Origin: Legionella busanensis
GTDB taxonomy: Bacteria; Pseudomonadota; Gammaproteobacteria; Legionellales; Legionellaceae
Direction: 5' to 3'
DNA length: 64,000 nt
NCBI RefSeq assembly: GCF_900461525.1
Contig: NZ_UGOD01000008.1
Location: 1-64,000, forward strand
The notes beneath the pieces are model-generated. The model ran no database searches. It saw nothing but the letters and a program-made list of their open reading frames with translations, and was not told the DNA's origin. This document shows, piece by piece, positions 1 through 63,729 of the stretch (positions are counted from its first letter, which is position 1; each line of letters begins with the position of its first letter). A program made the position numbers and the translations under genes.

Positions 1-554
1 AATTTGATATTCTTATTTCTTTCAATTGTTTACACTGGGTTAAAAAACAACAAGAAGCATTGGATGGCATCTCAGCTGCTGCTGTTCCAGGTGCACAAAT
101 AGTTCTACTTTTATCTCATAAAAAATCTTTATATCACCAGGTACTTGATAAAATTTGTTCTAGTCAAAAGTGGAATCAATATTTTTTAAATTTTGATAAT
201 CCTCGCTCGTTTTTCAATCCTAAAATATATAAAGACATGGTTTCAAAATCTGGATTATATGTAAATGAACTTATTGAGGAAGAGATGACTTATTTCTTTG
301 ATACCAAGGAACAGCTTAAAAACTTTTTCAGCGCTGCCGGCTCTCAAATTAAGCAAATCCCGGAAGATAGGAAGGAAGAGTTTTTAAATGACTTTGCAAA
401 TGAGTTTTTAAGGCAAGCAAATTGTGATGAAGATGAATTAATACCTGTAAGGTTTTGGTGTTTGCTTGTTAAGGCTAATAAACCTACTGTTAAACTTGAA
501 ATTATTAATGATAAAAGTAGTAATTTCTCTTCCTCTGCAACGTATAAGCCTTAG
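1..554 (+). CDS. SAM-dependent methyltransferase, 3' part (same gene as 61465-62313)
   Basis: The reading frame is open from base 3 and ends at the stop at 552-554. It matches residues from about position 100 to the end of the full gene at 61465-62313. The SAM-binding glycine-rich motif lies in the missing 5' part, so this piece alone holds only the C-terminal half of the Rossmann-like domain and its tail. The truncation is a window-edge effect, not a real lesion. See the full-length entry for function. Confidence 0.9.
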   Translation, partial: FDILISFNCLHWVKKQQEALDGISAAAVPGAQIVLLLSHKKSLYHQVLDKICSSQKWNQYFLNFDNPRSFFNPKIYKDMVSKSGLYVNELIEEEMTYFFDTKEQLKNFFSAAGSQIKQIPEDRKEEFLNDFANEFLRQANCDEDELIPVRFWCLLVKANKPTVKLEIINDKSSNFSSSATYKP

Positions 555-662
555 AAAACCTATTTACTAAAAGTTTAATTTGGTGGAATTTATAAAATAT
601 TTTCTCAACAGGGTTAAGTCACGCCGAAATGAGCATCAATCCTATTATTTAAACAAATTCAA

Positions 663-728
663 AATTGGTAATCAAATATAAATCAATAATGAATCATATA
701 GGAATCAATTACGAATCTAATAGAAATC
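663..728 (-). repeat. 11-bp phased iteron array, six units
   Basis: On the minus strand six consecutive 11-bp units each begin with GATT. On the plus strand the AATC cores start at 670, 681, 692, 703, 714 and 725, an exact 11-bp step. The consensus is roughly GATTNCTANTT. The array lies between the winged-helix gene (its 3' side) and the methyltransferase gene. The same repeat occurs in the 3.1-3.45 kb region and inside the winged-helix gene. Such arrays are typical of plasmid centromeres or initiator-binding sites. Confidence 0.85.
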
Positions 729-817
729 ATTTTTTAAAAAACATAAGATTTATCAAATTTTGACAAGCCGGAATATTAATTATGGATTTCTTAGATATTA
801 AAGTCTGTGATGTTTGT

Positions 818-1945
818 TCATTCTAAAATTAGATAGTCTGTTTTTTTTAGGGGCCAAATAACATCTTTAAAATACAGGCTTAATTTTGCATTCTGAGGCA
901 TAAAATCACTATGATTATTTTTTTTGGCAGTTATCTTTTTTATTTCATCTTGGGTTAGAGTGCCCTGCCATTCTGCTAATGCTAATTTATAGGCTTCTTC
1001 TTCTAACTGTTTTATTCTTTCAACTTCATTTTTTTTTGCTTTTATTAGCTCTAATTGTGCAAGCTCTTGGGGAGATCTATAGTTGCTCTCAAACCAAGGC
1101 TTACCTTTCCTTAATCTACCTATAAACACATTAAGAGGATTATCATATTGTTTATATTTAGTAGATTCATATTCCAAACCATAGGAATAATGTAAAATTG
1201 ATTCTTGTACAACTTGTGGTTCAATAAGTCCTGTTTCAAAAATATCTATTAGATGGCTTTTGTTAAAGCCTATGTGCTCTAAGGGAAGAATATTAATTCC
1301 CTCCCATTCGGGAGGTAATATACTCTTCTTCTCACTAACTAATTCTTTTTTGATTCCCAATTGATTTCCATATGATTCACTATTGATTTCTAATGGATTA
1401 TCTAATTTAACCATTCTTCTGTATTCTAAAGCGGCATTTCTGACTACTTCTGTTATTCTAAAAGAATAAAAGCCGCCACGCCCAGTTTTACCTTTTTCTC
1501 TTAAAATTAAATTTTTATGTATTAGCCTTTGTATAGAAGTCTTTACCATTTTCAAACTAGTCTGGGTTATTTCAGCAAGCGTTTCACCCTTAATGACTCC
1601 TGTAGATAACATGCCTCTAATAAGACATCGCTCAATTATAAATAAAAATATTTTCTTTTGATGCCCTGTTATTCTAAATATAATATCTAAAGCTGTTTCG
1701 GTATTGTGGAATATAGGCTCTGCAGGAATAGCAACTATCTTTTCTTCAATAATTTTTGAATCAAAATTTTTGTGAAACTTATTATCATCATTAGTTTCTA
1801 ATACTTTCGACGGCGATTCCTTTTTGACTTCTAATTGATTACTATTTGATTCCTTATCTAATTCATCCATGTAATTCCATGGTCTGTAATCAGATTTTTT
1901 AAATTTTATTTTTGATTTCTTAGTTAATTCATCTAATGTAGGCAT
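818..1945 (-). CDS. Winged-helix DNA-binding protein, ParA partner or replication initiator
   Basis: The protein has about 375 residues. I place the start at the ATG at 1943-1945, which follows AAGGA at good spacing, rather than the TTG one codon earlier. Residues about 95-170 form a helix-rich segment ending in a GRGG-containing wing, typical of winged-helix DNA-binding folds. The region around residues 300-335 is strongly charged and probably a coiled coil. The gene lies 24 nt downstream of parA on the same strand, the usual place for a ParB-type partner or a Rep gene. It shows no classical ParB motif. Its own coding sequence contains two blocks of the 11-bp repeats found in the origin region, suggesting it binds within its own gene. 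The exact role (partition or initiation) is inferred. Confidence 0.6.
   Translation of the reverse strand: MPTLDELTKKSKIKFKKSDYRPWNYMDELDKESNSNQLEVKKESPSKVLETNDDNKFHKNFDSKIIEEKIVAIPAEPIFHNTETALDIIFRITGHQKKIFLFIIERCLIRGMLSTGVIKGETLAEITQTSLKMVKTSIQRLIHKNLILREKGKTGRGGFYSFRITEVVRNAALEYRRMVKLDNPLEINSESYGNQLGIKKELVSEKKSILPPEWEGINILPLEHIGFNKSHLIDIFETGLIEPQVVQESILHYSYGLEYESTKYKQYDNPLNVFIGRLRKGKPWFESNYRSPQELAQLELIKAKKNEVERIKQLEEEAYKLALAEWQGTLTQDEIKKITAKKNNHSDFMPQNAKLSLYFKDVIWPLKKTDYLILE
1352..1406 (+). repeat. 11-bp iterons inside the winged-helix gene, five units
   Basis: Five abutting 11-bp units start with GATT at 1352, 1363, 1374, 1385 and 1396 on the plus strand, antisense to the gene that contains them. 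They match the repeats at 663-728 and 3306-3449. Because 11 is not a multiple of 3, the periodicity cannot come from a repeated peptide; the DNA itself seems to be under selection. Confidence 0.8.
1815..1858 (+). repeat. 11-bp iterons inside the winged-helix gene, four units
   Basis: Units start at 1815 (GATT), 1826 (GACT), 1837 (GATT) and 1848 (GATT) in exact 11-bp phase near the 5' end of the winged-helix gene. They have the same type and orientation as the block at 1352-1406. Confidence 0.72.
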
Positions 1946-1969
1946 CAATTTTTTCCTTAAATCTAATTA

Positions 1970-2968
1970 TTAAGCCTTCACAAGGTTATTAGATAAATTT
2001 TTATTGGTAGATGCTCGAGTTATATCTCCTAGCTCTTTGTTGTCAGGTGAGCCAATGTTTAATATCTCTCTAGTTAGTAAATCAACATCTTCTCTAGCTG
2101 GAGAGTTATTAAGGGAGTCATAAATTGATTCCCCTTTAGTTAATACATTTTCAAATTCTTGACTTTTTCTAATAACAGAACGGATTAAACTATTTTCATA
2201 GTGTGTCATAAGAAACTTCATGGTTTCATGCGACAAAGAAGTTCTAACATCAAACTCATTTAAAAGAGGGCTTAATACTAAAGAAGTATGGAAATTTTTT
2301 TCAATATTCTTAACTTCCTGCTTAGTAATTTCTAAACCCTCTAAACTAAATTCAGAAGGTGTGACAGGTGCAATTATTCGCTCTGACGCTAAAGCTGCAG
2401 CAGTGACAGAGCTACCTAGAGCAGGGGGGCAATCAATAAGGATTAAATCATATTTCTCTTTGAGAGGTGTAATCATTTCTTTATACACTCGATCAAGGGG
2501 CAACCGCTTCAACATTAAATTGCTATCTAATAAGGCATTTTCAATGCGGCTTGGTAAAATATCAAGACCATCGCACACTGGAATAATCCCTTCTTCGATT
2601 GGAATATCTTGATTAATAAGCTCTATCATTATTGGGTTATCATGCGTATTTATTCTACATGCTTTGGTTAAGTTACCTTGTTGATCGAGGTCAATTAACA
2701 GAGTTTTTGCTCCATATAGAGATGCACGAACTCCTATAGCCAAGCACATAGAAGTTTTTCCAGTACCGCCCTTTACAATTTGAAAACATAGTATTTGAGG
2801 TTTAAAGTTGAGAGATAAGAGAGATTTAGCTGTTTGATGGCCAAAATAAACTCTATTTCTACTCTTCACATGTTGTAGCTCTTTACGTTTAATTTGATTG
2901 TGAAGAGCTTGAGCAGTTACTCCTAATGCTTCCGCTGCCTCGCTAACGAGCATTTTGGGATCCATCAT
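1970..2968 (-). CDS. parA: ParA-type plasmid partition ATPase
   Basis: This is a 332-residue ParA/MinD-superfamily ATPase that segregates the plasmid by ATP-driven gradients on the nucleoid. Residues about 1-50 form a MerR/HTH-like DNA-binding domain (SEAAEALGVTAQALHNQIKR), as in type Ia ParA proteins that repress their own operon. The deviant Walker A motif KGGTGKT sits at residues 66-72, and the Walker A' aspartates follow in LLIDLDQQGN. AGGAG precedes two adjacent ATG codons (2968 and 2965). The next gene on the strand is the winged-helix partner. The AT-rich repeat region upstream (2969-4058) probably holds the promoter and centromere or origin. Confidence 0.95.
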   Translation of the reverse strand: MMDPKMLVSEAAEALGVTAQALHNQIKRKELQHVKSRNRVYFGHQTAKSLLSLNFKPQILCFQIVKGGTGKTSMCLAIGVRASLYGAKTLLIDLDQQGNLTKACRINTHDNPIMIELINQDIPIEEGIIPVCDGLDILPSRIENALLDSNLMLKRLPLDRVYKEMITPLKEKYDLILIDCPPALGSSVTAAALASERIIAPVTPSEFSLEGLEITKQEVKNIEKNFHTSLVLSPLLNEFDVRTSLSHETMKFLMTHYENSLIRSVIRKSQEFENVLTKGESIYDSLNNSPAREDVDLLTREILNIGSPDNKELGDITRASTNKNLSNNLVKA

Positions 2969-3132
2969 CTCATCTCCTGATTGCTTTGTTTAAGTTTTAT
3001 TGCAATTTATCATTTAATCTTAAACATGGATTTTTGGTAAGTCAATAAAAACACTATAAAAATTATTAATTATATTACATGGTTTAAAGTAATAGTTTTA
3101 TAACTATTATTACTATTATATTTAACTTAAAT

Positions 3133-3208
3133 GATTTCTATTATGATATCTAATTGATTACTAAATTGCTTAAGAGAACTTGTTTGGATTTCTATTTGAT
3201 ATCCATTT
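3133..3208 (+). repeat. Outlying 11-bp iteron units upstream of parA
   Basis: GATT/GATA-type 11-mers start at 3133, 3145, 3156, 3187 and 3198. Pairs are 11 bp apart, with breaks of 12 and 31 bp. They match the main array at 3306-3449 and are probably decayed or lower-affinity copies of the same binding site. Confidence 0.65.
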
Positions 3209-3305
3209 GAAGAAAAATATAGACTTAATTTTAATGTAAAAGGGTATTAATGAGCCAGTTTCTTTCGAAGTTCCTCTTTGATTATAATGAAAATTAAATT
3301 AGGTT

Positions 3306-3449
3306 GATTTCTATTAGGATTCCTAAATGATAATTATATGATTCTTTTATGTTACTTATATGATTCTTAGATGATTATTTAACGCATACTATATGCTTTT
3401 TAATAGAATACTAAATGATTGCTAATAGATTACTATATGATTCTCAAAT
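3306..3449 (+). repeat. Main 11-bp phased iteron array, 13 units
   Basis: One unit starts at 3306. Twelve further units then start at 3318, 3329, 3340, 3351, 3362, 3373, 3384, 3395, 3406, 3417, 3428 and 3439 with an unbroken 11-bp step. All twelve begin with G, and seven of those twelve begin with GATT. The consensus is GATTNCTANAT. One helical turn per unit places every site on the same DNA face, as in ParR-bound centromeres (such as R1 parC, which also uses 11-bp repeats) or iteron origins. Confidence 0.85.
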
Positions 3450-3616
3450 AACTAATTAATTCTTATTGATCAATAGAGTTTTCGTAAATTAATATATTAT
3501 CTATTAGGAGCTGGATTAGCTGAATAATATACTAATTTTACTGAACTAATCGTGTGATTTAGATGGTATTAAAATAAAAAATTAGTTTAATTTAAAATAT
3601 TAAACGACAGGATAAG

Positions 3617-3625
3617 TTATTCACA
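3617..3625 (+). promoter_or_regulatory. DnaA box
   Basis: TTATTCACA matches the DnaA-box consensus TTATNCACA at all positions. A second weaker match in the opposite orientation (TGGGGATAA) follows at 3631-3639. In this AT-rich region beside an iteron array it supports a replication origin. Confidence 0.6.
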
Positions 3626-4058
3626 AATTCTGGGGATAACCTTGTGCAGTAGTCGGGGAAAATAGCTAGTTGTGTTATAAGCTCACCTAAAAAGCCTATC
3701 TGTAATTTTGCTAAACTTGTCTATTCGATATGCATTAAATTTAGCACATTAACATTTTAAAAGCCTTTAATTATTTAAGTTTCGTTCATTGGATAACCTA
3801 ATAGAATTTGTATTGAAAGATTTAATTTTTATAGCCGTAAAAATGAACAGTTCAAAACAATACCATAATAAAGCCAAAGCCTAATTTCATAATTTTAGGA
3901 ACTGTTCTTGGTATTTACAGAGTGAAACGACACCCTTATTTATATAATCTTTACAGTAAAAAATTTATATTTATTAATTTAACTGGCTGAAATTCCAAAA
4001 ACAAGAGGTCTAAATTTTTGTATTTTTATTGTGATATATTATTTGTTAGGTTTTAATA

Positions 4059-4983
4059 TTAACTTGGTTTATTCTCATTAAGAAAATGATATATTTCTTC
4101 AACATTTTCTTGTGTTTTGCTTTTAAAAAAACTTAACCCAGTATTAGATACACCAGAAGAGCGGCCAAAACTAAAACTCATAAGTGCATTTAATAAGCCT
4201 TGAACAAATCTTTCCTTCCAGGAGGGTGATTCTAATTTACCATTATCAAGTAATTCAGTTTTGATTGTCTTTTCTATTTCACGATGACAATTTTTTAAGG
4301 CGTGTGGATTATTCGCATATTGTATTTCAGAGTAGAGCCTGGTTTTATTTATTTTTTTTAATGTGGAATTTAATATATCAATTCTTTTATCATTAGGTTG
4401 TTTTGTCCTAATTCGTTCTATTTCAAGCTCTATAACTTTTTCTATGGCCTTCAATTGTATAAAGAGTAAAGGGCGGGGACTATTATCTACGTTTAAATTA
4501 TCCTTTCTTTGATAAAGTTCAATTAGAGCTTTAATTTTATCATTAATGGAATGTTGCTCGCTTTTGATTTTATCTATTTCTTTTTTTTTCTAATGGATTT
4601 TCCTTCTTAGCAATATGTTGTTTGAGTAAAAAAAGAGTAACTTGATTGTATATTGGTGACATTCGTTCTTTATTCAATTCTATATTATCGGAAGTTGTGA
4701 GATATTTATAATTCTGAGCTCCTAATTGTTTTGCTGCCAATATTTGCATAGAAGTGGTTACAATTTGTAGTTGATCATCAAAATCGAGGTCCTTCATATT
4801 AACGCTTTGTAATTCATTAGAATTTTGAAATTCATAAACATTGGCAGGCTTAAAATTTTCTATTAAATTAATAATGAAGATAGTAGAATGGTCTAAAGAA
4901 GGTGGTCCTTTTTCCCATTGATAAGCAATGTAAGTAGCTAACTCTGTAGCTATTGAAGAAAGCGCGCTATTTTTTAATTTCAT
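4059..4983 (-). pseudogene. Unknown ~324-residue protein split by a one-base frameshift in an A-run
   Basis: Two reading frames (5031-4570 and 4454-4059) become one continuous protein if one A is removed from the nine-A run (plus-strand T-run 4581-4589). The sequence then continues in frame through EIDKIKSEQHSINDKIK into the second ORF. The best start is the ATG at 4981-4983, preceded by GGGGG. The joined protein is mostly helical, hydrophilic and lysine-rich, with no domain I recognise. It may be a Legionella accessory or effector-like protein. Whether the frameshift is real, a slippery contingency site or a sequencing error cannot be decided from one sequence. Confidence 0.6.
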
Positions 4984-5119
4984 ATATCCCCCATGTTTAA
5001 GTATAGGATATATAAGCATTATTTTTTTCAAATTATTCTATAATTTATCAATAGCGTCAGGTTTAAAGCAAGAAAATATATGGACCTAATACTTAATTAA
5101 GTAAAAATTAGCTTTCTGA

Positions 5120-5680
5120 TTATGCAGATAAATATCGATAAAGTGTAGGCTTTGAAATATTAAGTACTTTACAAATATCAGCAATAGCCAAGGCTTTATC
5201 TTGATGCATCCGTTTAGCCGCTTGAATCTTAGAACTATCCACTTTAGGGCGTCCACCTTTTTTGCCTCGTGCACGTGCTGCAGAAAGACCTGCTTGAGTT
5301 CGCTCTTGAATAAGGCGTCGTTCAAACTGGGCCATGGAAGAAAAAATATTAAAGACCAACTCACCCGAGGCCGTAGTCGTATCAATCGCACCATCACAGA
5401 GGGATTTAAATCCGACCCCTTTTTCGCGTAACGTTTCTATAAGCGTTACTAAATGCACCATCGAACGGCCTAAGCGGTCAAGGCGCCAGACGACTAACAC
5501 ATCTCCAGAAGTTAAATGCTCTAAACATTGGTTTAATCCAGGTCGCTCATTTTTGGAGCCCGAAACTTTATCTTTAAAAATAAGATTTTTTTGACAGCCG
5601 GCTTTTAGAAGGGCATCGACTTGTAAGTTTAAATTTTGCTCAATGGTGCTAACGCGGGCATAGCCAATTAATCGTGACAT
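5120..5680 (-). CDS. Serine recombinase of the resolvase/invertase family
   Basis: The 186-residue protein starts at the ATG at 5680, preceded by GAG-rich sequence; a TTG four codons upstream is less likely. The catalytic serine is in YARVST (Ser11). Conserved arginines follow in WRLDRLGRS and in FERRLIQERTQAGL, and a C-terminal Hin-type helix-turn-helix covers the last ~45 residues. This full domain set fits a Tn3-type TnpR or a DNA invertase (Pin/Hin). No transposase gene or obvious invertible segment adjoins it, so it may be a remnant of a Tn3-family element or act in plasmid multimer resolution. Confidence 0.92.
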   Translation of the reverse strand: MSRLIGYARVSTIEQNLNLQVDALLKAGCQKNLIFKDKVSGSKNERPGLNQCLEHLTSGDVLVVWRLDRLGRSMVHLVTLIETLREKGVGFKSLCDGAIDTTTASGELVFNIFSSMAQFERRLIQERTQAGLSAARARGKKGGRPKVDSSKIQAAKRMHQDKALAIADICKVLNISKPTLYRYLSA

Positions 5681-5692
5681 TACTTTTCTCAA

Positions 5693-6263
5693 TTATTGTT
5701 ATTTTTAACGAGTATCTAATACTTTGATTATGATATGGAAATATAATAAAAATAGCAATGTAAAAACCCAGGCTGAATAAGGAAAGTTGGGAGTAGGGGA
5801 GTAGAAGCGTGAGGAGTCTCAAAAAACGGTCGTTTTCCGAGACTTAAAAATAGTAATGAGTGAATCAATGAAAATAGTATTAATGCATATTTGATGTTGA
5901 TAAAATAAATTGGTCACTAAGTTAATCCTAACAGCATGATCTATTGATTTACTTAAATACAACCAAAATTGTCATAATTTAGATGTAATCTGCAACATAA
6001 GGGATGAAGTATTCTTTTATAAGTAATTGGTAGACCTAGGTATATAATAAATCGCAGTAAGATTACGCTTTGCGTGCTTCACTATTAAGCATGGCCTAAA
6101 TTATAATATCTTATATCCTAGAGAAAATTACTCGTACTGCGGACGTTAACCCATTAATAAGATAAAAAATAATATTTTTTAGTGTGCAGAAGTCTACTTA
6201 TAGTTTACAAAATGTACAATTAGTGTTAATATTAAATTCTTTGTATTATATAGTACCATATAA
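5693..6263. other. Intergenic region, 571 bp, no gene
   Basis: I see no coding sequence. It lies between the divergently oriented recombinase and the Sel1-repeat gene, so both promoters should be here. It contains the palindrome at 5816-5843. If the recombinase is a TnpR, its res site would be expected here, but I cannot define one. Confidence 0.6.
5816..5843. repeat. 28-bp palindrome resembling paired Tn3-family ends
   Basis: Two 13-bp arms, GTCTCAAAAAACG and CGTTTTCCGAGAC, face each other across a central GT, with two mismatches between arms. GTCTC-N-GAAAACG is reminiscent of the inner part of Tn21-type terminal inverted repeats. It lies 136 bp upstream of the serine recombinase start. It could be a transposon-end remnant, a recombinase site or a simple hairpin. 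Confidence 0.5.
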
Positions 6264-7847
6264 ATGCCAATCACTAATAGCACAGAAATTACCCTTAAAG
6301 ACCTAAAAAAATATAGTAACACTGACCTAGTTACGGTCATTGGTCAGCAAGTACTTGCTGGAAACTATACTAATTTATTCTTATTGACAACAACGTTGGT
6401 TTCTATTTCTTCTGCCTCACCTAACGTTAAAGATACATCTCTTAGCCAAAGTATTAGGGCACTTAGTCGTCAATGCCAAAAACAGCTAGATTGGAACTGC
6501 TCGCATGCCTTGTTTCTAGAAGGTGTATTTTGTTATTTAGGCATTGAGAGACCTAAAGACGATAAACAAGCTATCTATTATCATGAAAAAGCTATTACCC
6601 AGGGTAATAGCTTTTCTATGATAGAGCGCGCTGCAATGCATCAGTGGGGTGAAGGTGGAGATATAAATATTTCTGAGGCCATGCGATTATATGATAAAGC
6701 AATTAGTTTAGGTAATGTTGTCGCAATGAATTCTCAGGCACAAATATATCTATCAAATAAAGATTTTCCTAAGGCTATCAAGTTATATGAAGATGCAATT
6801 TTATTAGGTTACACTCCTGCAATGATTGAGAGAGCCATGATGCATCAATATGGGTATGAGGAAGGTGGTGAAATAAGTTTTTCTAAGGCTATTGAACTCT
6901 ATGAGCAAGCAATTCAATTAGGTGACTCCAACGCAATGAGAAAACGTGCCTTAATGTATTACGAAGGTCAAGGTGGCGACGTTAATTATTCTGAGGCAAT
7001 TAGACTATTCGAAGAAGCTATTGAACTAGGAGATGCAGATGCAATGAACGACCGTGCCTGGATGTATTGCCAGGGGCATGGTGGCGACATTAATTATTCT
7101 GAGGCCATGAAATTATATAAGCAGGCAAGTCAATTAAAACATATAGACGCTACAGGTAATTGCGCTCATATGCATGAATGCGGACTAGGTACAAATCTTA
7201 ATCTTTCCAAAGCGATTAAATGGTATGAGAGAGCATATCGCTATAATAATGGCAAAGATAACAATATAAATAATAATCTCAAAGAAAAGATAGAAAGTAT
7301 TCTTTCTGACGAGGGACAACTTGCTGAGGATTTGTTAAATACCCTTTGGAAAGAGTTGATAGCGGGTGAATCGTTTACTCAAGAAACCTTATCTTACCTA
7401 AGTAAATATTGTAGCAAAACTCTTTTAGAACGGCTAAAAACTTCACCTGAAGGAACTAGTCTTTTCTTTTTAAAACAATTGAAGTTAAATTCTTTACATC
7501 CCGTGACCTCGATCCTTAGTTCTCATGATGCTAAATTAAACCATTTTGTAGGCAGAGCCATTTACAATATATCTACCTTCTTTGGCGTACCAGTTGATAC
7601 TGATTTTAAGGAATTAATGCGTCATGCCAGAAATATAAGCGATAGCCGCATAGCTTTTTTTCAAAAAGCAATAGCCGCGGATGAACCCAGTGTTTCACTT
7701 AACGACCTGTCTCCGGAATTAAAAACACATATATTTTCCTTTCTTCAACCTGGATTAGTAAGCGATTTAAGACAAGGATGTTTTTTTACTGCAACACCAA
7801 AAGAGCCTACTGAAGAGAATGTTACAAGTAATTTAAAAATATCTTAA
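6264..7847 (+). CDS. Sel1-like repeat protein with conserved C-terminal module
   Basis: The protein has 527 residues. Residues about 75-325 hold six to seven Sel1-like repeats, 33-38 residues each, recognisable by A-I-x-L-Y/F-E-x-A-I-x-L-G and A-M-x-x-R-A/M-M-Y patterns. Such TPR-related solenoids bind partner proteins, and Legionella has many, some required for host infection (LpnE, EnhC). The C-terminal ~180 residues match the protein at 22044-23324. They include LSPELKTHIFSFLQPG, which resembles an F-box core. There is no signal peptide, consistent with Dot/Icm-type export rather than Sec, but this is inference. No strong ribosome-binding site precedes the ATG. Confidence 0.85.
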   Translation: MPITNSTEITLKDLKKYSNTDLVTVIGQQVLAGNYTNLFLLTTTLVSISSASPNVKDTSLSQSIRALSRQCQKQLDWNCSHALFLEGVFCYLGIERPKDDKQAIYYHEKAITQGNSFSMIERAAMHQWGEGGDINISEAMRLYDKAISLGNVVAMNSQAQIYLSNKDFPKAIKLYEDAILLGYTPAMIERAMMHQYGYEEGGEISFSKAIELYEQAIQLGDSNAMRKRALMYYEGQGGDVNYSEAIRLFEEAIELGDADAMNDRAWMYCQGHGGDINYSEAMKLYKQASQLKHIDATGNCAHMHECGLGTNLNLSKAIKWYERAYRYNNGKDNNINNNLKEKIESILSDEGQLAEDLLNTLWKELIAGESFTQETLSYLSKYCSKTLLERLKTSPEGTSLFFLKQLKLNSLHPVTSILSSHDAKLNHFVGRAIYNISTFFGVPVDTDFKELMRHARNISDSRIAFFQKAIAADEPSVSLNDLSPELKTHIFSFLQPGLVSDLRQGCFFTATPKEPTEENVTSNLKIS

Positions 7848-11297: not shown

Positions 11298-13133
11298 ATG
11301 GCATTGCATAGGGCATTATTAAATTTACATAACTTATTAGGTTATAAGGAATCGGCAGGTTTGTGTCATGGTTTTTCGTTGCGCTGGTTAGAGGCAACTT
11401 TTTTAGGCGAGCAGGAGCTTCGACGTTTTGAATTACGTATGGCTCTTATTCAAGTCCTACCACCTGACTTACTGTTGGCGAAAATACAGCAAACACAATC
11501 TAAAAAAGGGCAAAGTCTTTCTGATGAAGATAACGCCTTACTCGGCATACTTGCTTTTTTTGATAGCTTAGAACTATTTCATTCACCTGAGAAATATACT
11601 ACCTTATTTGAGCAAAATTTAAATCAAAATGATGTTTCCCTTATTTCACCCGTAGCATCTTCTGCTATGATTGAGGCACAAGGCCATTTAAAAGAAATCT
11701 ATTTACAGCCTAAAATTCTAGCACGAGATGAACTTTACAACTATCTTCATGAATTAGCTTATTTAATAAATAATAATTTAAAGGATAAGAATAAACCCAT
11801 TGGTTTTTTACTATCAAGCTATGATCATGCTATTTCATTAAGTTATATAGCCAGTTTAGGTTGGTTATTTCGTGATATAAATCAGCCTTTAACAACGATG
11901 ACAAGGACAGCTATAGATTATAATTTGGTTGATAATATCATTAAGGCTCTTAATCCTAAGGATTCATCCCCCTATGTTGCTTTTAATACAAGTTTTATCT
12001 TAACTACCAATAATATTACTAATTTTGAATTAAAAAACTTAATTCCTGTAGGGCCAAGTACTGAGGTATTAAAGGAATTCACTCTGCGGCAAGGTGAGGA
12101 TGGTATTACATTGGCTTTATTAGCTGCTCAACAAAATGATACTGCGTTTATGGCAACTTTAGTTGATGTTGTTGATATAGATTTTTTAAATAGAACAACG
12201 CCGAAAGGTCAAACCCCCCTTTATATTGCTGTAGAAAATAATTTTATTCAAATGTTTACAATTTTAGTTGAAAAAGGGGTTGATTTAAATAAGGGTGATG
12301 CAAGCGAGGTAACGCCTATTTCTTTGGCCGTAGAACTTGGTTATATTTCGACCTTTATTTTTTTAGCAGAAAAAGGCGCCAATTTAAATAAGCCCGATAT
12401 AAAGGGCGTAACTCCTCTGATGGCCGCTGCAAGGTTACGTCACCTATCAGTCATTACTATTTTAGCCGAAAAGGGTGCTGATTTTGACCAAGCCGATAAA
12501 GATGGTGTAACCGCTGCTATGATTGCTGCGGCAATAGGTGATGCTTCGGTTATGACAGCCTTAATTAAAGGAAGAGCTGATATTAATAAAGTCACGGAAG
12601 ATGGTACTACACCGACTTTTATTGCAGCGAAAAGGGGCCATGTTGCAGTGATTGAGATTTTAATTATAGAAAATGCAGACTTAAATAAAGCGCTAATAGA
12701 TAATGCCACACCTGTATTTATCGCAGCACAATATGGTCATGTTGATGTAGTTAAATTACTACTAGCAAGTAAAAGGTGTGATGTTGAAATTTCTTTTGAA
12801 TCAACCATAGATTATTTGGTAAAATTTGCAGCTGATGAGTCAGAAAGACAACAAAATCCTGAAATTGGTCAACGTATGCATGAGTTTTTAAAAAACCAAT
12901 CTTCAACACAGGTTAAAATGAAGCCTTATGATATTGCTAAAATAATGGGCCATAATGAGATTGCTAACCTTATTACAGACCATCTTAAATCGATAAATCA
13001 TAATTTTCATCAACATAGCTTAAATAAGGACCATTATTTTTTGGCAAGCTCCTCATTGTTCTCTAAAAGAAAACAAGCAGAAGAGCTATTAGCAGAAGAG
13101 TGTAACTTTAAAACCAAAAGAAAAGGTAGATAA
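11298..13133 (+). CDS. Ankyrin-repeat protein with N-terminal C58/papain-like peptidase domain
   Basis: The protein has 611 residues. The N-terminal ~200 share layout with the protein at 19635-21671. Cys23 is in GLCHGFSLRW, His177 in YDHAISLSY and Asp193 in LFRDIN. The G-x-C-x-x-(F/L)-S-x-x-W motif and a Cys-His gap of ~150 with a His-Asp gap of 16 recall YopT/AvrPphB (C58) cysteine proteases. Residues about 265-475 contain six to seven ankyrin repeats (TPLYIAVENNF type). The C-terminus is Glu-rich (EELLAEE), like Dot/Icm E-block signals. An injected protease effector is a reasonable inference. The peptidase assignment rests on motifs only. Confidence 0.75.
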   Translation: MALHRALLNLHNLLGYKESAGLCHGFSLRWLEATFLGEQELRRFELRMALIQVLPPDLLLAKIQQTQSKKGQSLSDEDNALLGILAFFDSLELFHSPEKYTTLFEQNLNQNDVSLISPVASSAMIEAQGHLKEIYLQPKILARDELYNYLHELAYLINNNLKDKNKPIGFLLSSYDHAISLSYIASLGWLFRDINQPLTTMTRTAIDYNLVDNIIKALNPKDSSPYVAFNTSFILTTNNITNFELKNLIPVGPSTEVLKEFTLRQGEDGITLALLAAQQNDTAFMATLVDVVDIDFLNRTTPKGQTPLYIAVENNFIQMFTILVEKGVDLNKGDASEVTPISLAVELGYISTFIFLAEKGANLNKPDIKGVTPLMAAARLRHLSVITILAEKGADFDQADKDGVTAAMIAAAIGDASVMTALIKGRADINKVTEDGTTPTFIAAKRGHVAVIEILIIENADLNKALIDNATPVFIAAQYGHVDVVKLLLASKRCDVEISFESTIDYLVKFAADESERQQNPEIGQRMHEFLKNQSSTQVKMKPYDIAKIMGHNEIANLITDHLKSINHNFHQHSLNKDHYFLASSSLFSKRKQAEELLAEECNFKTKRKGR

Positions 13134-17123: not shown

Positions 17124-17729
17124 ATGTATCAGATACCTATCATTGAAATGGCTAAGTTAGGACAAACTGAAGCAATTATCGAATGGTTAAATACTTATAC
17201 TCAAAAGAATGACCTTTTAAACATTGATGAAGAAGATGACGAAGGAAATTCCGCTATTCTGATTGCTGCTCGTCGCAATGATTTAAAAATGCTAAAAATT
17301 TTGCTTGATCATGGTGCAAATCGTAATGTGGTTGATGTGTATGGGCGTAACGCCTTGTATTGGGCTAAAGAAAATGGCAATACTAAGATGCAGTTTTTAT
17401 TAGAAACGCCTGCCAAAGAAATTTCTGGTGATGAAACTATGGCAATAGAAAATTCATCATCCTTTAAAACTATTTCAGAAGAACAAGAAGAAATTCAGTC
17501 AAGTGTTGATAAAAGTCAGGAATTAACTTTGGGTGAATCTCAATTCAAGTACATAAAAATACCTTCTAGTAACAACAGCACTGCTAACCAACGAAGTCCC
17601 CTCCAATTTCAAAGCATGTTTAGAAAGAGTGAGAACGATTTACCCTTTCTAGCGTTAAATGCAGCCCAAAAGTTAGCTGGTTTTCTGGAAGACACAACTG
17701 ACGAAGAGTCGTTTTCATTAACTCTTTAA
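17124..17729 (+). CDS. Small ankyrin-repeat protein
   Basis: The protein has 201 residues. Residues about 5-95 contain two clear ankyrin repeats (EGNSAILIAARRNDLKMLKI and YGRNALYWAKENGNTKMQFL) plus a degenerate first one. The remainder is polar, Ser/Glu-rich and probably disordered. Ankyrin domains bind other proteins, and Legionella uses many in effectors. No signal peptide is present. It stands in tandem with other ankyrin genes on the same strand but 120 bp from the next, so probably transcribed alone. Function unknown. Confidence 0.75.
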   Translation: MYQIPIIEMAKLGQTEAIIEWLNTYTQKNDLLNIDEEDDEGNSAILIAARRNDLKMLKILLDHGANRNVVDVYGRNALYWAKENGNTKMQFLLETPAKEISGDETMAIENSSSFKTISEEQEEIQSSVDKSQELTLGESQFKYIKIPSSNNSTANQRSPLQFQSMFRKSENDLPFLALNAAQKLAGFLEDTTDEESFSLTL

Positions 17730-17848
17730 TTTATTTAATAATACCCAAGCTTTATTTTTTAATATCTCATTTATTAATCTTACAATTTATTTGTTTTTCA
17801 ATGACTTATGATATAAAGTGTCTTTAATTTAGATAAAGCAAGTCTTTT

Positions 17849-19297
17849 ATGCACAATACTAATTTAGACTATAAAGCATGTTTAATTGATTTAGGCCTAT
17901 CCTCTACCCTTTTGATTGAACAGCTTAATTACTATGAGGCCTACATACGATTAAAGCCCGCCATGCAATTTTATCAATATCCATTAGTCATTGATGCTTC
18001 ATGGCAATTGATGTTTTTTAACTCATCTAAAACTGTGTCTGACTATTTTCTACAAGAATATAAAGAGGCGACAGATAATGTAGGAGGGGCATTAGTTCAT
18101 TATGCTAGCTGGGCTGGAAATGTTGACGCTTTAAATTGGTTTAAAATGAACTCACCTGAACAATTCGTAAAAAGAGATAGTAAAGGTAGAAAGGCAAGTC
18201 ACTATGCTGCAATGTCTGGGTGTACTAAAGCCTTAGATTGGTTCAAAGCAAATTATCCCGAACAATTACTAGAGAGAAGTTATGGGAACGTTACTCATGG
18301 CCACTACATAGCTTTATCGGGCTCTGCTGATGCCCTAACTTGGATGCAAGTTCATTACCCTCAGCAGTTACTTATAAAAGATAGTAATGGAATTAGCCCA
18401 GTTTTTAATGCTGCCTGGATGGGCTTTACTCAAACACTGGACTGGTTTTATAGGAATTATCCCCACGAATTCTTAAAAAGAGACAATTCAGGTAACGTGC
18501 CTGGTTATTATGCTGCGTTGTCAGGCAGTGTTAAGGCGTTAACATGGTTTGAAAATAATTATCCTGAGCAACTTTTAGAAACAAACAAGTATGGCTTCAA
18601 TATAACGCATTATGCTGCAGCATCCGGCTCTACTCAGCAACTACAAAAAGTTTTATCGCGATATCATTCACCCAATCAATTTTCTTTTATTAATATGAAT
18701 AAAAAGCTTTTAGAAAAGTCTATTACTTGTTTATTAGAATTATTAAAAACTAATTATTCTATTACTAAAGTAAACAATCTTTCACTGGTTAATAACGAGC
18801 AAAAAAAGTTAATTGAAACTTATTTAGAACGAAATAAAGCAATAAAAGAAACAAAAATGAGATTTATTCCTTTTACTCAATTGTCAGCACATCTTCTCAA
18901 GTTGACCCCTGAGCTCAAAATGCAGGTGCTAAATTACTTGCTGCCCAAGGACACTAACGAAAAAACCATTTATCATTCACTGCTACCCCAGCAGCGTATC
19001 TTATTTATTTTAAAAAATACGTTGAGGGAATCAGTGAAATCCGGTCATGATATAAAGGCTTTGAACAAATTAGTTAATGAAGTAGATGCAATGCAAGAGA
19101 GTTTAGATAAAGCAGCACTATTAAATCAGATAGAGCTTTTTGAAAAAGAGTTGCAAGCAGGGCAAAAAAATCATTTCTTTAAGGTAACTCTTGCTCCTAA
19201 TCAACTTACATGTTTATCTCTCATTAAGGCTATTTTAACAAAAGAAGAAAGCCATCAAGCTTCGCATCAGATCGATAGTTTAAAAGTGCCTGTTTAG
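17849..19297 (+). CDS. Divergent ankyrin-repeat protein with C-terminal F-box-like segment
   Basis: The protein has 482 residues. From about residue 75 to 270 there are six repeats of ~33 residues with the pattern H-Y-A-A-x-S-G-x-x-x-A-L-x-W-F-x-x-N-Y-P-E-Q-L-L, a Trp-rich ankyrin variant. Residues about 345-370 (LLKLTPELKMQVLNYLLPK) resemble an F-box core (LPxELxxxIxxxL) and the C-terminal segments of the two Sel1 proteins here. The C-terminal 100 residues are helical and probably coiled coil. A role as a host-directed adaptor is inferred from architecture only. Confidence 0.72.
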   Translation: MHNTNLDYKACLIDLGLSSTLLIEQLNYYEAYIRLKPAMQFYQYPLVIDASWQLMFFNSSKTVSDYFLQEYKEATDNVGGALVHYASWAGNVDALNWFKMNSPEQFVKRDSKGRKASHYAAMSGCTKALDWFKANYPEQLLERSYGNVTHGHYIALSGSADALTWMQVHYPQQLLIKDSNGISPVFNAAWMGFTQTLDWFYRNYPHEFLKRDNSGNVPGYYAALSGSVKALTWFENNYPEQLLETNKYGFNITHYAAASGSTQQLQKVLSRYHSPNQFSFINMNKKLLEKSITCLLELLKTNYSITKVNNLSLVNNEQKKLIETYLERNKAIKETKMRFIPFTQLSAHLLKLTPELKMQVLNYLLPKDTNEKTIYHSLLPQQRILFILKNTLRESVKSGHDIKALNKLVNEVDAMQESLDKAALLNQIELFEKELQAGQKNHFFKVTLAPNQLTCLSLIKAILTKEESHQASHQIDSLKVPV

Positions 19298-22043: not shown

Positions 22044-23324
22044 TTATAGCTTATATTGATATTGCGCAATATCTTCTTCAATGCCTGGTTGTACCTCAGA
22101 TAAAATGGCATGTTGGATATCTTTTACTAAGTTAAATGAGCTTGAAGTTGGATGATTGCATAAAGTAAAAAAAGTCATGGCGGTGTTTCGAAGGTTTTTA
22201 GCTCGTTTTTCCAGAGGTTTTGTGGAAGTTGGATTATAAAAAAATGATGTTATGTAATTGGTCAATTTTTTTATTATGGATTCTTCTTTAATTTCTTCTC
22301 TAATAATTTTTGCAAGTGGATGGGTAGAGTGTGAGTTTAATAGTTCTTTTAAAAACTTAAAACTTGTTTCTTTAGGTAATTTAGGTGAGTTTATAATCCT
22401 ATTAATAATTTCTTCTATACAATACTTACTTAAAGCGGCTATGGTAGGCTTGCTAAAGGATTTGCCATCAATTAAATCCTCCCAGAGAACATCTAATAGT
22501 TCAAGAGATACCGTCTTATCAATCTCAATATAATCAAGACTAATTTGCGCGCTCTTATAGCCTTTGCGTAGTGCGCATTCGTAAAGACGAATGGCTTTAG
22601 GATAATTGATATTTTCACCTTCACCTGCCTGATACATGTATGCACGATTACACATAGCATATTCTTCGCCAAGTTCAATAGCATACTCGAAAAGTTGAAT
22701 GGCTTTAGCATAGTCGACAGGCCCACCTTGACCAAGTCGATGCATACTGGCGCGATTACCTAGGGCATAAACATTGCCAAATTTAATAGCCTGTTCCAAG
22801 AGGCGAATCGCTTCAGGATAATTAACAGGCTCATCCATCCGATAAATGATGGCAAGGCTAACCATAGCATCAACATTGCCATGGTTAATAGCTTGTTCAA
22901 GAAGTCTAATGGCTTCAGGGGGATTTTTATCCCCACCTAAGCCTAGGTTATGTAGATATGCGCGACTATACATGGCATAACTATTATTTAATGTAATAGC
23001 CTTGTCTAAGTACTCAATGGCACGTTTGTAATCTACATTACAGCCTATTCCAAATGAATATAAAAGGGATTGTAAAAATAAAGCATGAGAATCTTTCTCA
23101 TCCGCACTTTTACAATAAGTATGAAGGTTTTGAATAAGTATGCCTAGGGTCGATTCAGTTTTTATAAATTGTTTAAGGATGTCTGAATCAAAGGTCTTTG
23201 TGAGTGCCTTTAAGTTGACATAGTTGCCTGCTAATATTTCAAGGCTAACCTGATTGAGTATTTGAGCTTCCTGGTAGGCATATTTGTCTGAAAATGAGGC
23301 GCGTGAAATGTCTTTAAAAAGCAT
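22044..23324 (-). CDS. Sel1-like repeat protein, paralogue of 6264-7847
   Basis: The protein has 426 residues. Residues about 85-260 contain five Sel1-like repeats (AIRLLEQAINHGNVDAMVSL type). The first ~90 residues (ILAGNYVNLKALTKTF) and the C-terminal ~170 residues (LLDVLWEDLIDGKSF, then LSKYC) parallel those of the protein at 6264, which shows common descent of the whole architecture, not only the repeats. Near the C-terminus, DIQHAILSEVQPG aligns with the F-box-like segment of the paralogue but matches the F-box pattern less well. There is no signal peptide. It is probably a protein-interaction scaffold; host-directed function is inferred. Confidence 0.83.
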   Translation of the reverse strand: MLFKDISRASFSDKYAYQEAQILNQVSLEILAGNYVNLKALTKTFDSDILKQFIKTESTLGILIQNLHTYCKSADEKDSHALFLQSLLYSFGIGCNVDYKRAIEYLDKAITLNNSYAMYSRAYLHNLGLGGDKNPPEAIRLLEQAINHGNVDAMVSLAIIYRMDEPVNYPEAIRLLEQAIKFGNVYALGNRASMHRLGQGGPVDYAKAIQLFEYAIELGEEYAMCNRAYMYQAGEGENINYPKAIRLYECALRKGYKSAQISLDYIEIDKTVSLELLDVLWEDLIDGKSFSKPTIAALSKYCIEEIINRIINSPKLPKETSFKFLKELLNSHSTHPLAKIIREEIKEESIIKKLTNYITSFFYNPTSTKPLEKRAKNLRNTAMTFFTLCNHPTSSSFNLVKDIQHAILSEVQPGIEEDIAQYQYKL

Positions 23325-57954: not shown

Positions 57955-58983
57955 TTAACTTATATGCACTCTTAGGTTAGCTATTTCCTTTTCAAGGGTG
58001 CTAATTTTTAATTGGGCTTTTGCTAAGATTGCTTCAAATTGTTCTCGCGCATGCCGATGTAATTTCGTATCGTTTAACAGTCTTTTAAAATGAATAATTT
58101 CTGAGCGAGCATCTTGAAGTTCTTGCTCTTTATTTTTAGAAACAGCAGTTACTTTCTCTTGTGCTTTAAAAATTAAGCCAGGTGGCGTTTGCCAATCGCC
58201 ACGTGAGATAACTATGCGTATGGCATTAAGTTTCCGCCCAAAATCTTGCCCACAGGCAATAAAGTGCTTAGAGCTTAATAAGCAATATTCAATTTCTTGA
58301 AAAAGAATTTGGGCATTTGAACTATTTAGCTTTTGAGCAAGTGCATGAACTCGTTTCTTTTGGTTAAGAGTCAGTGTGCTACCTATCACTGACTCTTCTG
58401 CTGATAAAAAGTGAATGGCTTGGTGCTCTGCTCGGTCAGATACCTGTTTATCGCTTAATTTATTTTTATCAGAAAAAGCAGCGGCAGCATTTTCCTGATT
58501 TAAAAAAGTATTTGATAAAAGTTTACTGCTTGCTGCTGCTTTCTTAGTTAATAAATTATTATTATTTTTATTATTTATTAGAGTTGGATTAGCCGTCTTC
58601 GGTTTTCCAGTCGCCGGATTTTCAGGTTCTAGCACTACCGAAAACGTGTTTTCAGGCGCTGGTGTTTTTTCGTTCTTTGTTGGCTTAGGAATTTCATAAA
58701 CAATATATTCTACACCTTCAAATTTGCCGCTTGCGTTATTTCTACAAGGTGATTTTGAAATATATCCAGCTTGCTCTAATTCGCTTAAAAGGCTTCGAAC
58801 AGAATCTCGACCGTTAGTCGAGCGTGTTTGTAAGTCAGCAACTCTCACGCACCAATCATCGGGCAAAGACATTAAATAGGCATGAAGCCCTTTAGCGCCC
58901 CAAGACAGTTTAATATCTTGTAAACAGGTTTTATCAAGGATGATAAAGTTTTGATTTTTTTTATGGATTCGAAGTACAGACAT
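57955..58983 (-). CDS. HTH protein between traY and traA, possible replication initiator or regulator
   Basis: The protein has 342 residues. Residues about 15-85 (DIKLSWGAKGLHAYLMSLPD, then a recognition-helix region NGRDSVRSLLSELEQAGYIS) form a winged helix of the type found in phage/plasmid replication proteins (HTH_36). The middle is low in complexity (Asn run NNKNNNN, Lys/Ala-rich). The C-terminus is a coiled coil. It overlaps traY by 23 bp, so it belongs to the tra operon. F has no such gene here. It could be a second plasmid initiator or a tra regulator. Confidence 0.55.
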   Translation of the reverse strand: MSVLRIHKKNQNFIILDKTCLQDIKLSWGAKGLHAYLMSLPDDWCVRVADLQTRSTNGRDSVRSLLSELEQAGYISKSPCRNNASGKFEGVEYIVYEIPKPTKNEKTPAPENTFSVVLEPENPATGKPKTANPTLINNKNNNNLLTKKAAASSKLLSNTFLNQENAAAAFSDKNKLSDKQVSDRAEHQAIHFLSAEESVIGSTLTLNQKKRVHALAQKLNSSNAQILFQEIEYCLLSSKHFIACGQDFGRKLNAIRIVISRGDWQTPPGLIFKAQEKVTAVSKNKEQELQDARSEIIHFKRLLNDTKLHRHAREQFEAILAKAQLKISTLEKEIANLRVHIS

Positions 58984-59212: not shown

Positions 59213-59352
59213 TTTCTACTCCAGATTAACTTCCAGTAATCTTCTTAATTGTTATAACAATCTGTGTGGTACTTTTTTTAATTAATAGTTTGACTATTAA
59301 GACAGTTTATTCTTATGGAAAAATTGTTTACACTTTCCTTATATAAACACTA

Positions 59353-59404
59353 TTCACCATATATGGTAATTTTATCATATATGGTGAATTTACCGTAAAT
59401 GGCG
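59353..59404 (+). promoter_or_regulatory. Operator: 13-bp inverted repeat and third half-like site
   Basis: TTCACCATATATG (59353-59365) and CATATATGGTGAA (59376-59388) are perfect inverted copies separated by 10 bp. Each contains ACCATATATGGT or part of it. A third related site, TACCGTAAATGGCG, lies at 59391-59404, just before the repressor ATG at 59409. Two to three sites in a divergent promoter are typical of CI-like repressors. The repressor at 59409 is the likely ligand and the tra operon the likely target. Confidence 0.78.
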
Positions 59405-62577: not shown

Positions 62578-63705
62578 TCATTCTAAAATTAGATAGTCTG
62601 TTTTTTTTAGGGGCCAAATAACATCTTTAAAATACAGGCTTAATTTTGCATTCTGAGGCATAAAATCACTATGATTATTTTTTTTGGCAGTTATCTTTTT
62701 TATTTCATCTTGGGTTAGAGTGCCCTGCCATTCTGCTAATGCTAATTTATAGGCTTCTTCTTCTAACTGTTTTATTCTTTCAACTTCATTTTTTTTTGCT
62801 TTTATTAGCTCTAATTGTGCAAGCTCTTGGGGAGATCTATAGTTGCTCTCAAACCAAGGCTTACCTTTCCTTAATCTACCTATAAACACATTAAGAGGAT
62901 TATCATATTGTTTATATTTAGTAGATTCATATTCCAAACCATAGGAATAATGTAAAATTGATTCTTGTACAACTTGTGGTTCAATAAGTCCTGTTTCAAA
63001 AATATCTATTAGATGGCTTTTGTTAAAGCCTATGTGCTCTAAGGGAAGAATATTAATTCCCTCCCATTCGGGAGGTAATATACTCTTCTTCTCACTAACT
63101 AATTCTTTTTTGATTCCCAATTGATTTCCATATGATTCACTATTGATTTCTAATGGATTATCTAATTTAACCATTCTTCTGTATTCTAAAGCGGCATTTC
63201 TGACTACTTCTGTTATTCTAAAAGAATAAAAGCCGCCACGCCCAGTTTTACCTTTTTCTCTTAAAATTAAATTTTTATGTATTAGCCTTTGTATAGAAGT
63301 CTTTACCATTTTCAAACTAGTCTGGGTTATTTCAGCAAGCGTTTCACCCTTAATGACTCCTGTAGATAACATGCCTCTAATAAGACATCGCTCAATTATA
63401 AATAAAAATATTTTCTTTTGATGCCCTGTTATTCTAAATATAATATCTAAAGCTGTTTCGGTATTGTGGAATATAGGCTCTGCAGGAATAGCAACTATCT
63501 TTTCTTCAATAATTTTTGAATCAAAATTTTTGTGAAACTTATTATCATCATTAGTTTCTAATACTTTCGACGGCGATTCCTTTTTGACTTCTAATTGATT
63601 ACTATTTGATTCCTTATCTAATTCATCCATGTAATTCCATGGTCTGTAATCAGATTTTTTAAATTTTATTTTTGATTTCTTAGTTAATTCATCTAATGTA
63701 GGCAT
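62578..63705 (-). CDS. Winged-helix ParA partner/initiator, same gene as 818-1945
   Basis: Full-length second view of the gene described at 818-1945, with identical translation and the same ATG (63703-63705) and AAGGA. The internal 11-bp repeat blocks fall at 63112-63166 and 63575-63618. Confidence 0.6.
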   Translation of the reverse strand: MPTLDELTKKSKIKFKKSDYRPWNYMDELDKESNSNQLEVKKESPSKVLETNDDNKFHKNFDSKIIEEKIVAIPAEPIFHNTETALDIIFRITGHQKKIFLFIIERCLIRGMLSTGVIKGETLAEITQTSLKMVKTSIQRLIHKNLILREKGKTGRGGFYSFRITEVVRNAALEYRRMVKLDNPLEINSESYGNQLGIKKELVSEKKSILPPEWEGINILPLEHIGFNKSHLIDIFETGLIEPQVVQESILHYSYGLEYESTKYKQYDNPLNVFIGRLRKGKPWFESNYRSPQELAQLELIKAKKNEVERIKQLEEEAYKLALAEWQGTLTQDEIKKITAKKNNHSDFMPQNAKLSLYFKDVIWPLKKTDYLILE

Positions 63706-63729
63706 CAATTTTTTCCTTAAATCTAATTA

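Follow-up and report, generated by a model that had tools for sequence, protein, structure and literature searches.

Helically phased repeat arrays in and around a ParA-winged-helix operon of a Legionella busanensis plasmid: a candidate plasmid maintenance system

The DNA analyzed here (the window) comprises 64,000 nucleotides of Legionella busanensis, the first 64 kb of a 75,399-bp contig (C8; NZ_UGOD01000008.1) in a 3.93-Mb genome. Near its start, the genes for a ParA ATPase and a winged-helix (WH) protein lie head to tail on the reverse strand, accompanied by arrays of one short repeat unit, GATTnCTAaAT on the forward strand or AGnAATCAAAT in the sense of the operon, at a step of 11 bp. These arrays are conserved in place and phase in most relatives of the locus, and they most likely serve a ParA system as its centromere-like site, with the WH protein as their reader. 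The WH protein would probably be the sequence-specific DNA-binding partner of ParA, with the phased arrays as its sites, in a ParA-type plasmid maintenance module. An earlier sequence-only reading had proposed an unusual partition or replication-control system. This proposal is supported, as the phase recurs in most relatives and the motif follows the WH protein; the binding itself, and the division between partition and replication, are what we infer. The genes and arrays concerned are the following.

1970..2968, reverse strand: ParA ATPase of 332 amino acids (aa) with a putative N-terminal helix-turn-helix (HTH) and the Walker motif KGGTGKT (AAA_31, E=7.5e-33; ParA-like PHROG, 5e-46).
818..1945, reverse strand: WH protein of 375 aa, with an ATG start at 1945 that is shared by close homologues.
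3302..3449, forward strand: main upstream array of 13 registers, 12 of them at an exact 11-bp step (self-match, position weight matrix [PWM], and genome pattern search).
3129..3204, forward strand: looser upstream cluster of 5 scored units, spaced by a mixture of 11- and 12-bp steps with one gap (PWM).
1811..1854, forward strand: in-gene array A of 4 registers (3 scored), encoding aa 31-45 of the linker preceding the winged helix.
1348..1402, forward strand: in-gene array B of 5 registers, each scoring >=7.5 bits, encoding aa 182-200.
667..732, reverse strand: downstream array of 6 registers (5 scored), in the opposite orientation.

The phased arrays of the sequence-only reading are real in an autocorrelation check at lag 11. 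The self-match was 0.594 in 3306-3449 (shuffle mean, 0.335; standard deviation, 0.039), 0.612 in 3318-3449, and 0.673 in the downstream array at 663-728 (shuffle mean, 0.347), and none of 2,000 dinucleotide shuffles reached the observed value in any of the three. The lag-22 self-match of the arrays exceeds the lag-11 value. The main array had been described as unbroken; all 12 registers from 3318 to 3439 indeed keep step, but an intact GATT core is found in just 7 of the 12. The extra unit claimed at 3306 is present, although it lies 12 bp, not 11, from the next unit. Among the outliers placed at 3133-3208, five single units score well with the PWM, but lag 11 alone was not significant for this cluster (observed value reached by 142 of 2,000 shuffles). 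On the 61,759-bp plasmid represented by the contig, sites of >=7.5 bits by the window PWM numbered 42 within 600-3520 and 141 over the other 58.8 kb; no neighboring same-strand pair among the latter was spaced 10 to 13 bp apart. A three-unit pattern with <=2 mismatches occurred at 26 places in the whole genome, 24 on the plasmid contig (many counted twice owing to the self-overlap of the contig) and 2 on contig C1, while the reversed control pattern occurred at 4 places genome-wide.

The two arrays inside the WH gene were absent from the sequence-only reading. In slightly wider stretches around them, the observed lag-11 value was reached by 2 of 2,000 shuffles each. An 11-bp step is not a multiple of 3, and a simple peptide repeat would therefore not produce it. 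When the whole WH coding sequence was shuffled among synonymous codons with the protein kept, the observed periodicity score was reached in 3 of 500 shuffles. As synonymous shuffles so rarely reach this score, the in-gene arrays look constrained at the DNA level, beyond the demands of the protein sequence. The same test was applied to 23 loci picked for having in-gene arrays, using for each whichever of periods 11 and 12 gave the better result; in 21 of these loci, synonymous shuffles reached the in-gene period in <=4 of 500 cases, the exceptions being L063 (19/500) and L066 (8/500).

The AAA_31 match bears out the earlier assignment of the ATPase to ParA rather than ParM; the N-terminal HTH matched HTH_17 at E=6e-4, under the Pfam cut-off. 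The WH protein consists of an N-terminal basic peptide, a disordered linker, the winged helix (about aa 85-179), another disordered linker, and a helical C-terminal domain (about aa 212-371). An AlphaFold model from 17 sequences (mean pLDDT, 72.8; pTM, 0.34) was confident for the winged helix (pLDDT of about 90) and the helical C-terminal part and was disordered (pLDDT <50) in aa 28-81 and 182-206. These disordered segments contain the array-encoded residues 31-45 and 182-200, array B encoding the linker that joins the winged helix to the C-terminal domain. The C-terminal domain was seen exclusively at WH loci among 143 genomes. The partner had been described as not a standard ParB, which agrees with the profile searches: neither ParB_N nor RepA_N was among the 21 Pfam families matched by 21 WH-family members at E<=0.1. 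The region before the winged helix, where type Ia ParB has its N-terminal CTPase domain, is mostly disordered in the model, and a "ParB-like" PHROG match was weak (E=0.067) and confined to 1 of 18 C-terminal domains. PDB structures matched by the WH domain included regulators of the MarR/ArsR type, AspA and TubR (both centromere-binding proteins), DnaD, and pPS10 RepA, none at a Foldseek E of <=0.001.

Array conservation was assessed at 44 ParA-WH loci, which include duplicates (L071/L089, L069/L090, three Piscirickettsia salmonis variants, and L081/L082, among others). A motif was fitted per locus, same-strand neighbors 10 to 13 bp apart were counted, and each locus was compared with 20 of its own shuffles. 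For phased pairs, 38 of the 44 loci beat all 20 shuffles, with steps of mostly 11 or 12 bp. The window locus had 22 phased pairs, compared with a maximum of 10 pairs and runs of <=3 in 35 control tiles (<=4 kb) from four of the plasmids. The sequence-only reading had named conservation of the phase in related plasmids as a check, and the step is 11 or 12 bp in most relatives, 13 bp in one sub-clade, and 34 to 36 bp in one type of WH protein lacking the C-terminal domain. Motif spellings vary from plasmid to plasmid, G+C-richer motifs (GAGCCAAAGTG) included, while placement at the locus does not; within it, the arrays take up varying combinations of positions, namely upstream of parA, the 5' portion of the WH gene, the stretch between the winged helix and the C-terminal domain, and downstream. 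On the Bdellovibrio sp. plasmid pBdHAGR4 (AP029180.1), with the ParA and WH genes at 1446-2294 and 2300-3577, the phased arrays are significant and sit chiefly in the gene. Most units can be read from their consensuses as a skeleton AG-N(3-4)-CA with a plasmid-specific center (AATC, TAAC, GTTC, GAGAC, GAGCC, AGTC, etc.), which the sub-clade with TTTATAAA does not fit.

The L. busanensis genome itself carries three ParA-WH-type loci with three arrays: AATCA at 11 bp on C8, TTTATAAA at 13 bp on C5, and AGAGACACA at about 35 bp on C3. The window motif formed zero phased pairs at the C5 and C3 loci, as expected for co-resident plasmids.

A tblastn search with the WH protein (E<=0.01) matched 84 plasmid records, of which 77 were from Piscirickettsia, 2 each from Legionella, Candidatus taxa, and Bdellovibrio, and 1 from Cysteiniphilum. 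With long forms (with the C-terminal domain) and short forms (without it) counted together, 30 of 143 genomes of the order had a match to the first WH alignment; in a class-wide draw, 9 of 369 genomes matched, the window's own included. Loci were found in Legionella impletisoli, L. rowbothamii, L. massiliensis, L. bozemanae, Rickettsiella massiliensis, and Aquirickettsiella, and further ParA-WH loci in Cardinium and in alphaproteobacterial, gammaproteobacterial, and Verrucomicrobia metagenome-assembled genomes (MAGs). With the window ParA as a tblastn query, ParA was detected directly upstream of WH in 35 of the 44 loci, and annotation places it there in 3 of the other 9 (L009, L081, and L082). 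The pair on P. salmonis p5PS2 (L007/L014) lies on a plasmid with many annotated phage structural genes, which is probably a phage-plasmid.

Mantel tests related the array motif to the proteins of the locus. Of the 44 loci, 31 were given, and ParA distances exist for 25 of these. Loci that were duplicate, broken, truncated, or weakly phased had been left out beforehand (L010, L013, L027, L028, L070, L073, L076, L079, L081, L083, L089, L090, and L103); L083 was excluded though it beat its own shuffles, and L030 and L009 were kept though not significant in the array count. Across the 25 loci, motif distance correlated with the WH domain at r=0.76, with the ParA ATPase domain at 0.69, and with the ParA HTH and the C-terminal domain at 0.53 each. 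Given the ParA HTH, the WH correlation remained at 0.64 (p 0.0002), while that of the ParA HTH given WH was 0.04 (p 0.35). Across all 31 loci, the values were 0.60 for WH, 0.38 for the C-terminal domain, and 0.54 for WH given the C-terminal domain. The motif follows the WH domain. Likewise, recognition-helix classes match motif classes: TTRNGRETA, for example, goes with GTTCAA in one Rickettsiella and in two MAGs, alphaproteobacterial and Verrucomicrobia, whose GTTC arrays are accompanied by a near-identical recognition helix. In R. massiliensis, one contig (NZ_AJGC01000004) carries two ParA-WH loci, L093 and L095, whose 3' parts are 94.8% identical in DNA. Their C-terminal domains are common to both, whereas the N-terminus, the winged helix, and the arrays differ (TAAC type with a 12-bp step versus GTTC type with an 11-bp step); one of the two has a truncated ParA open reading frame (ORF). 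This pair resembles a natural swap experiment and helps the reading that the arrays follow the WH domain.

Short forms retain ParA and arrays. By pair count, 10 of 17 short-form loci beat all of their shuffles; of the other 7, 5 carry AGAGACACA units every 34 to 36 bp, L119 shows no array (also by lag scan), and L114 is cut by a contig end. The lag scan is insensitive to scattered pairs and gave nothing for L112, though this short form is clear by pair count. A conjugative plasmid of L. anisa gave tblastn matches to all 20 window ORFs given, in the same order and mostly at 60 to 88% identity; the collinear genes comprise the transfer region, an S24 peptidase, a VUT-type transporter, the next ORF, and a methyltransferase. 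Beside them lie ParA, a 239-aa protein with the winged helix and without the C-terminal domain, and a separate HTH gene, with 11-bp GGTTCACAA units upstream of parA and within the WH gene. A plasmid of L. geestiana has similar genes by annotation, together with ParA, a ParB_N protein, and a homologue of the separate HTH gene of L. anisa. The ParA/ParB_N locus of the sister plasmid had no array by pair count (5 pairs; shuffles reached up to 7). As short forms keep the arrays and the ParB_N locus is without them, the arrays go with ParA and WH regardless of the C-terminal domain, which is the main argument for a centromere.

A second short-form type (L118, L123, L111, L124, and L125) has ATAAGAGACACA units every 34 to 36 bp; in two of these loci they fall within the gene and form long coding repeats. 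Its N-terminus reads MKIEDILKKQ in L111, L124, and L125, with similar starts in L118 and L123.

In the mechanism that we propose, the second gene of a ParA-type plasmid maintenance module would encode a sequence-specific WH DNA-binding protein (no ParB domain was found in the family), and the phased repeats would be its binding sites. With one unit per helical turn, WH copies would align on one face of the DNA and may form a filament-like centromere complex, which ParA would move, perhaps through contact with a conserved K-F-x(4)-Y-R-P-W peptide at the N-terminus of the WH protein. The complex would probably also repress the parA operon. Unusually, part of the array is written into the WH gene itself, in the DNA for the disordered linkers flanking the winged helix. 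Computation shows the arrays, their conservation, the constraint on the DNA within the gene, and the covariation of motif and WH domain; we infer the binding, the filament, the contact with ParA through the N-terminal peptide, and the centromere function.

Several observations weigh against this interpretation. Six of the 44 loci fail to beat their own shuffles (L027, L028, L030, L009, L081, and L103); the first four form the sub-clade with 13-bp TTTATAAA-type arrays upstream instead, L081 is without upstream sequence, and L103 ends at a contig edge. The arrays lie mainly in the gene at some loci and mainly upstream at others. The correlation of the motif with the ParA ATPase domain falls to 0.18 given WH (p 0.054), that of the ParA HTH keeps 0.36 (p 0.001) when just the 18-residue recognition-helix stretch is held fixed, and that of the C-terminal domain given WH is still 0.24 (p 0.01; 31 loci). 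The Mantel tests remove shared ancestry partly, not fully. The winged-HTH fold is as compatible with an ordinary regulator as with a centromere-binding protein. The support is computational, and WH-array binding and plasmid stabilization are predictions.

The start of the window recurs from position 61,760 of C8 onward, and the contig is therefore taken to represent a circular plasmid of about 61.8 kb (61,759 bp) with a self-overlap of about 13.6 kb in total. Window positions 1-5836 and C8 positions 61760-67597 share 99.97% identity over 5,838 aligned bases; after 5836, the two copies diverge by about 2 kb near a resolvase gene (comparison over the first 8.2 kb). This difference may reflect a mobile insertion carried by some of the molecules. 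What appears to be a second WH gene is a duplicate produced by this overlap and not a separate gene. Tandem 18-bp palindromic units (ATTTACCATATATGGTAA) at 59352-59402 lie immediately upstream of an S24-type repressor gene (59409-60065) and are possibly its operators. Several Sel1- and ankyrin-repeat genes are found at 6264-7847, 11298-13133, 17124-19297, 19635-21671, and 22044-23324, and a 678-aa ORF contains a 102-bp tandem repeat of 6.9 copies. Upstream regions of relatives (25 loci) contained 8 DnaA boxes in 7 regions, versus 2.0 boxes expected. Further features are as follows.

62578..63708, reverse strand: second copy of the WH gene, from the contig self-overlap.
3617..3625, forward strand: DnaA-box-like TTATTCACA, one of two TTATNCACA on the plasmid.
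57955..58983, reverse strand: second Rep candidate, P0001 (PHROG "replication initiation protein," 3e-18, and "DnaD-like helicase loader," 2e-17).

The strongest competitor of a ParA-associated centromere is a WH protein that is primarily a replication initiator, with the arrays as origin iterons and ParA merely sharing the operon. Such a protein would resemble pSK41 Rep or lambda O, with an N-terminal DNA-binding domain, an origin-encoded linker, and a C-terminal domain recruiting host replication proteins; we consider it unlikely. Weak profile matches point in this direction: Phage_rep_O in the window protein (E=0.0022; 18.9 bits versus a cut-off of 28.7) and in 5 of 21 family members (best E, 0.0011), DnaD_N in 3 of 21 (best E, 0.0054), and the PHROG "replication initiation O-like" (E=0.0069), beside equally weak MarR matches in 5 of 21 members (best E, 0.0034). 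A viral structure library gave 7 matches at E<=0.001 with low TM-scores, one of them named replisome organizer, and the lower-ranked matches included a lambda GpO N-terminal-like protein and several replication proteins. Among loci listed in the alignment search of the order, 10 of 20 short forms versus 2 of 22 long forms had a separate Rep-like gene (A7) no more than 6 kb away (Fisher p 0.0055; linear distances, the truncated long form on G042:C12 counted as short, and many contigs so short that absence is weak evidence), and both long-form matches were weak and partial. As A7 is commoner near short forms, this suggests that the C-terminal domain of the long form replaces the separate gene. 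At G042:C12 (L079), a truncated long-type WH gene is followed by a close same-strand Rep-like match, which looks like a split or unfused version of the long form. The complete 47-kb L. israelensis plasmid has no A6- or A7-type Rep (A6 being the P0001 type), nor is any of its 53 features annotated as a replication protein. According to PMC6963756, pPSLF89-2 and -3 of P. salmonis LF-89 carry partition genes and lack replication proteins, and neither an origin nor iterons were identified in the LF-89 plasmids; the LF-89 plasmid record NZ_CP011852.1 carries the WH gene. However, short forms without the C-terminal domain retain both the arrays and ParA, and the contrast in A7 weakens to 3 of 22 (p 0.019) if contig G093:C2 is circular, as a third long form then has a weak A7 match nearby. 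The C-terminal domain, modeled alone (pLDDT 90), had no fold match in the PDB and no significant profile match to the Rep candidates. Furthermore, the window plasmid has another Rep candidate in P0001 (HTH_36, E=0.0014, under the cut-off), about 3.6 kb from the WH gene across the circular junction and with a similar gene on the L. anisa plasmid, and 5 further long-form loci of the 22 have an A6 candidate at a distance of up to about 5 kb, one of them a fragment. A second role of the extra C-terminal domain in replication initiation is plausible, and the two functions may be combined: in a fused partition-replication protein, a centromere-binding winged helix would be joined to an initiator domain, one self-encoded phased array would serve as both centromere and origin, and a code between recognition helix and unit center would set plasmid identity. 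This extension of the centromere reading is tentative, and we hold it to be somewhat doubtful as a whole.

The remaining explanations fare less well. That the arrays are operators alone, with the WH protein as autorepressor of the parA operon, would suit the position of the main arrays upstream of parA, the likeness of the fold to MarR/ArsR regulators, and the sole PDB sequence match under E=0.001, the hypothetical transcriptional regulator 2d1h (1.3e-4). However, in-gene, downstream, and long upstream arrays would exceed the needs of repression, and this explanation is very improbable. Type Ia ParA proteins repress their own operons through an N-terminal HTH, and this precedent, like the motif correlation of the ParA HTH and what remains of it given the recognition helix alone, would favor ParA rather than the WH protein as the reader of the arrays. 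As the correlation vanishes given the whole WH domain, and as the Bdellovibrio ParA is without the HTH in the alignment yet its locus has arrays, we regard this as a negligible possibility. Equally slight is the chance that no dedicated protein is involved and the arrays are phased A/T runs that serve DNA bending or reflect low-complexity drift: the sequence upstream of parA is AT-rich (76%) and an 11-bp step favors bending, but the motifs vary in sequence and not in place, include the G+C-richer spellings, and covary with the WH domain.

The centromere-like reading can be set against known systems. With ParA partition systems in general, the locus shares a putative DNA-binding partner encoded beside ParA and repeated sites nearby. 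The parC site of plasmid R1 consists of 11-bp repeats, phased upstream of the operon as here; in the L. busanensis operon, however, the motor is ParA instead of the actin-like ParM, the partner models as a winged helix and not as the ribbon-helix-helix ParR, and arrays also lie inside the gene. AspA of pNOB8 (PDB 4rs8 and 5k5q) is likewise a winged-helix centromere-binding protein that works with a ParA, but it is archaeal and small, and its system has an additional ParB adaptor. In type III systems, TubR binds the direct repeats of tubC upstream of its operon (PMC5016525), whereas the motor here is ParA and not the tubulin-like TubZ; the matched TubR chain has 93 residues. StbA of R388 is described as acting in plasmid stability through 9-bp stbDRs spaced by 2 bp (PMC3098194), giving the same 11-bp step around the promoter region and not in the gene; the likeness drawn here is one of repeats. 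In SCP2, parS lies within the coding sequence of parT, whose product is a ParA partner without a CTPase domain, but according to PMC12260392 this site is a single 18-bp inverted repeat read by a ParB-like HTH, unlike the phased direct-repeat array found here. On the replication side, the gene of pSK41 Rep itself contains the four boxes that Rep binds, and origin DNA encodes the linker of the protein (PMC5703833). The WH gene shows this trait of RepA_N replicons, with repeats (presumed binding sites) in the linker region between a DNA-binding and a C-terminal domain, but here the sites are predicted, ParA is in the operon, arrays lie also outside the gene, and RepA_N is not among the Pfam matches. 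The repABC operons likewise combine a ParA-type gene with an initiator whose gene, repC, contains the origin; they differ in having a separate ParB (RepB), and the origin is described as without iterons (PMC3155836). A literature search of titles and abstract openings found no description of a ParA-WH family with in-gene phased arrays.

The ParA-WH operon with its arrays is a testable candidate maintenance system for plasmids of Legionellales, Piscirickettsia, Rickettsiella, Cardinium, and others, some of which were published without a recognizable replication protein or iterons in the account of PMC6963756. The same arrangement, with other repeat spellings, is present on plasmids and contigs of several unrelated bacteria. 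The covariation of site and reader, together with the L093/L095 pair, allows direct tests of a recognition code and of what underlies plasmid compatibility. If partition and replication were fused in the long form, there would be a readable code between the recognition helix and the plasmid-specific center of the AG-N(3-4)-CA unit. Sites placed in the linker codons of their own reader would, if this is true, clearly exemplify a DNA segment on which selection acts for two sorts of information at once.

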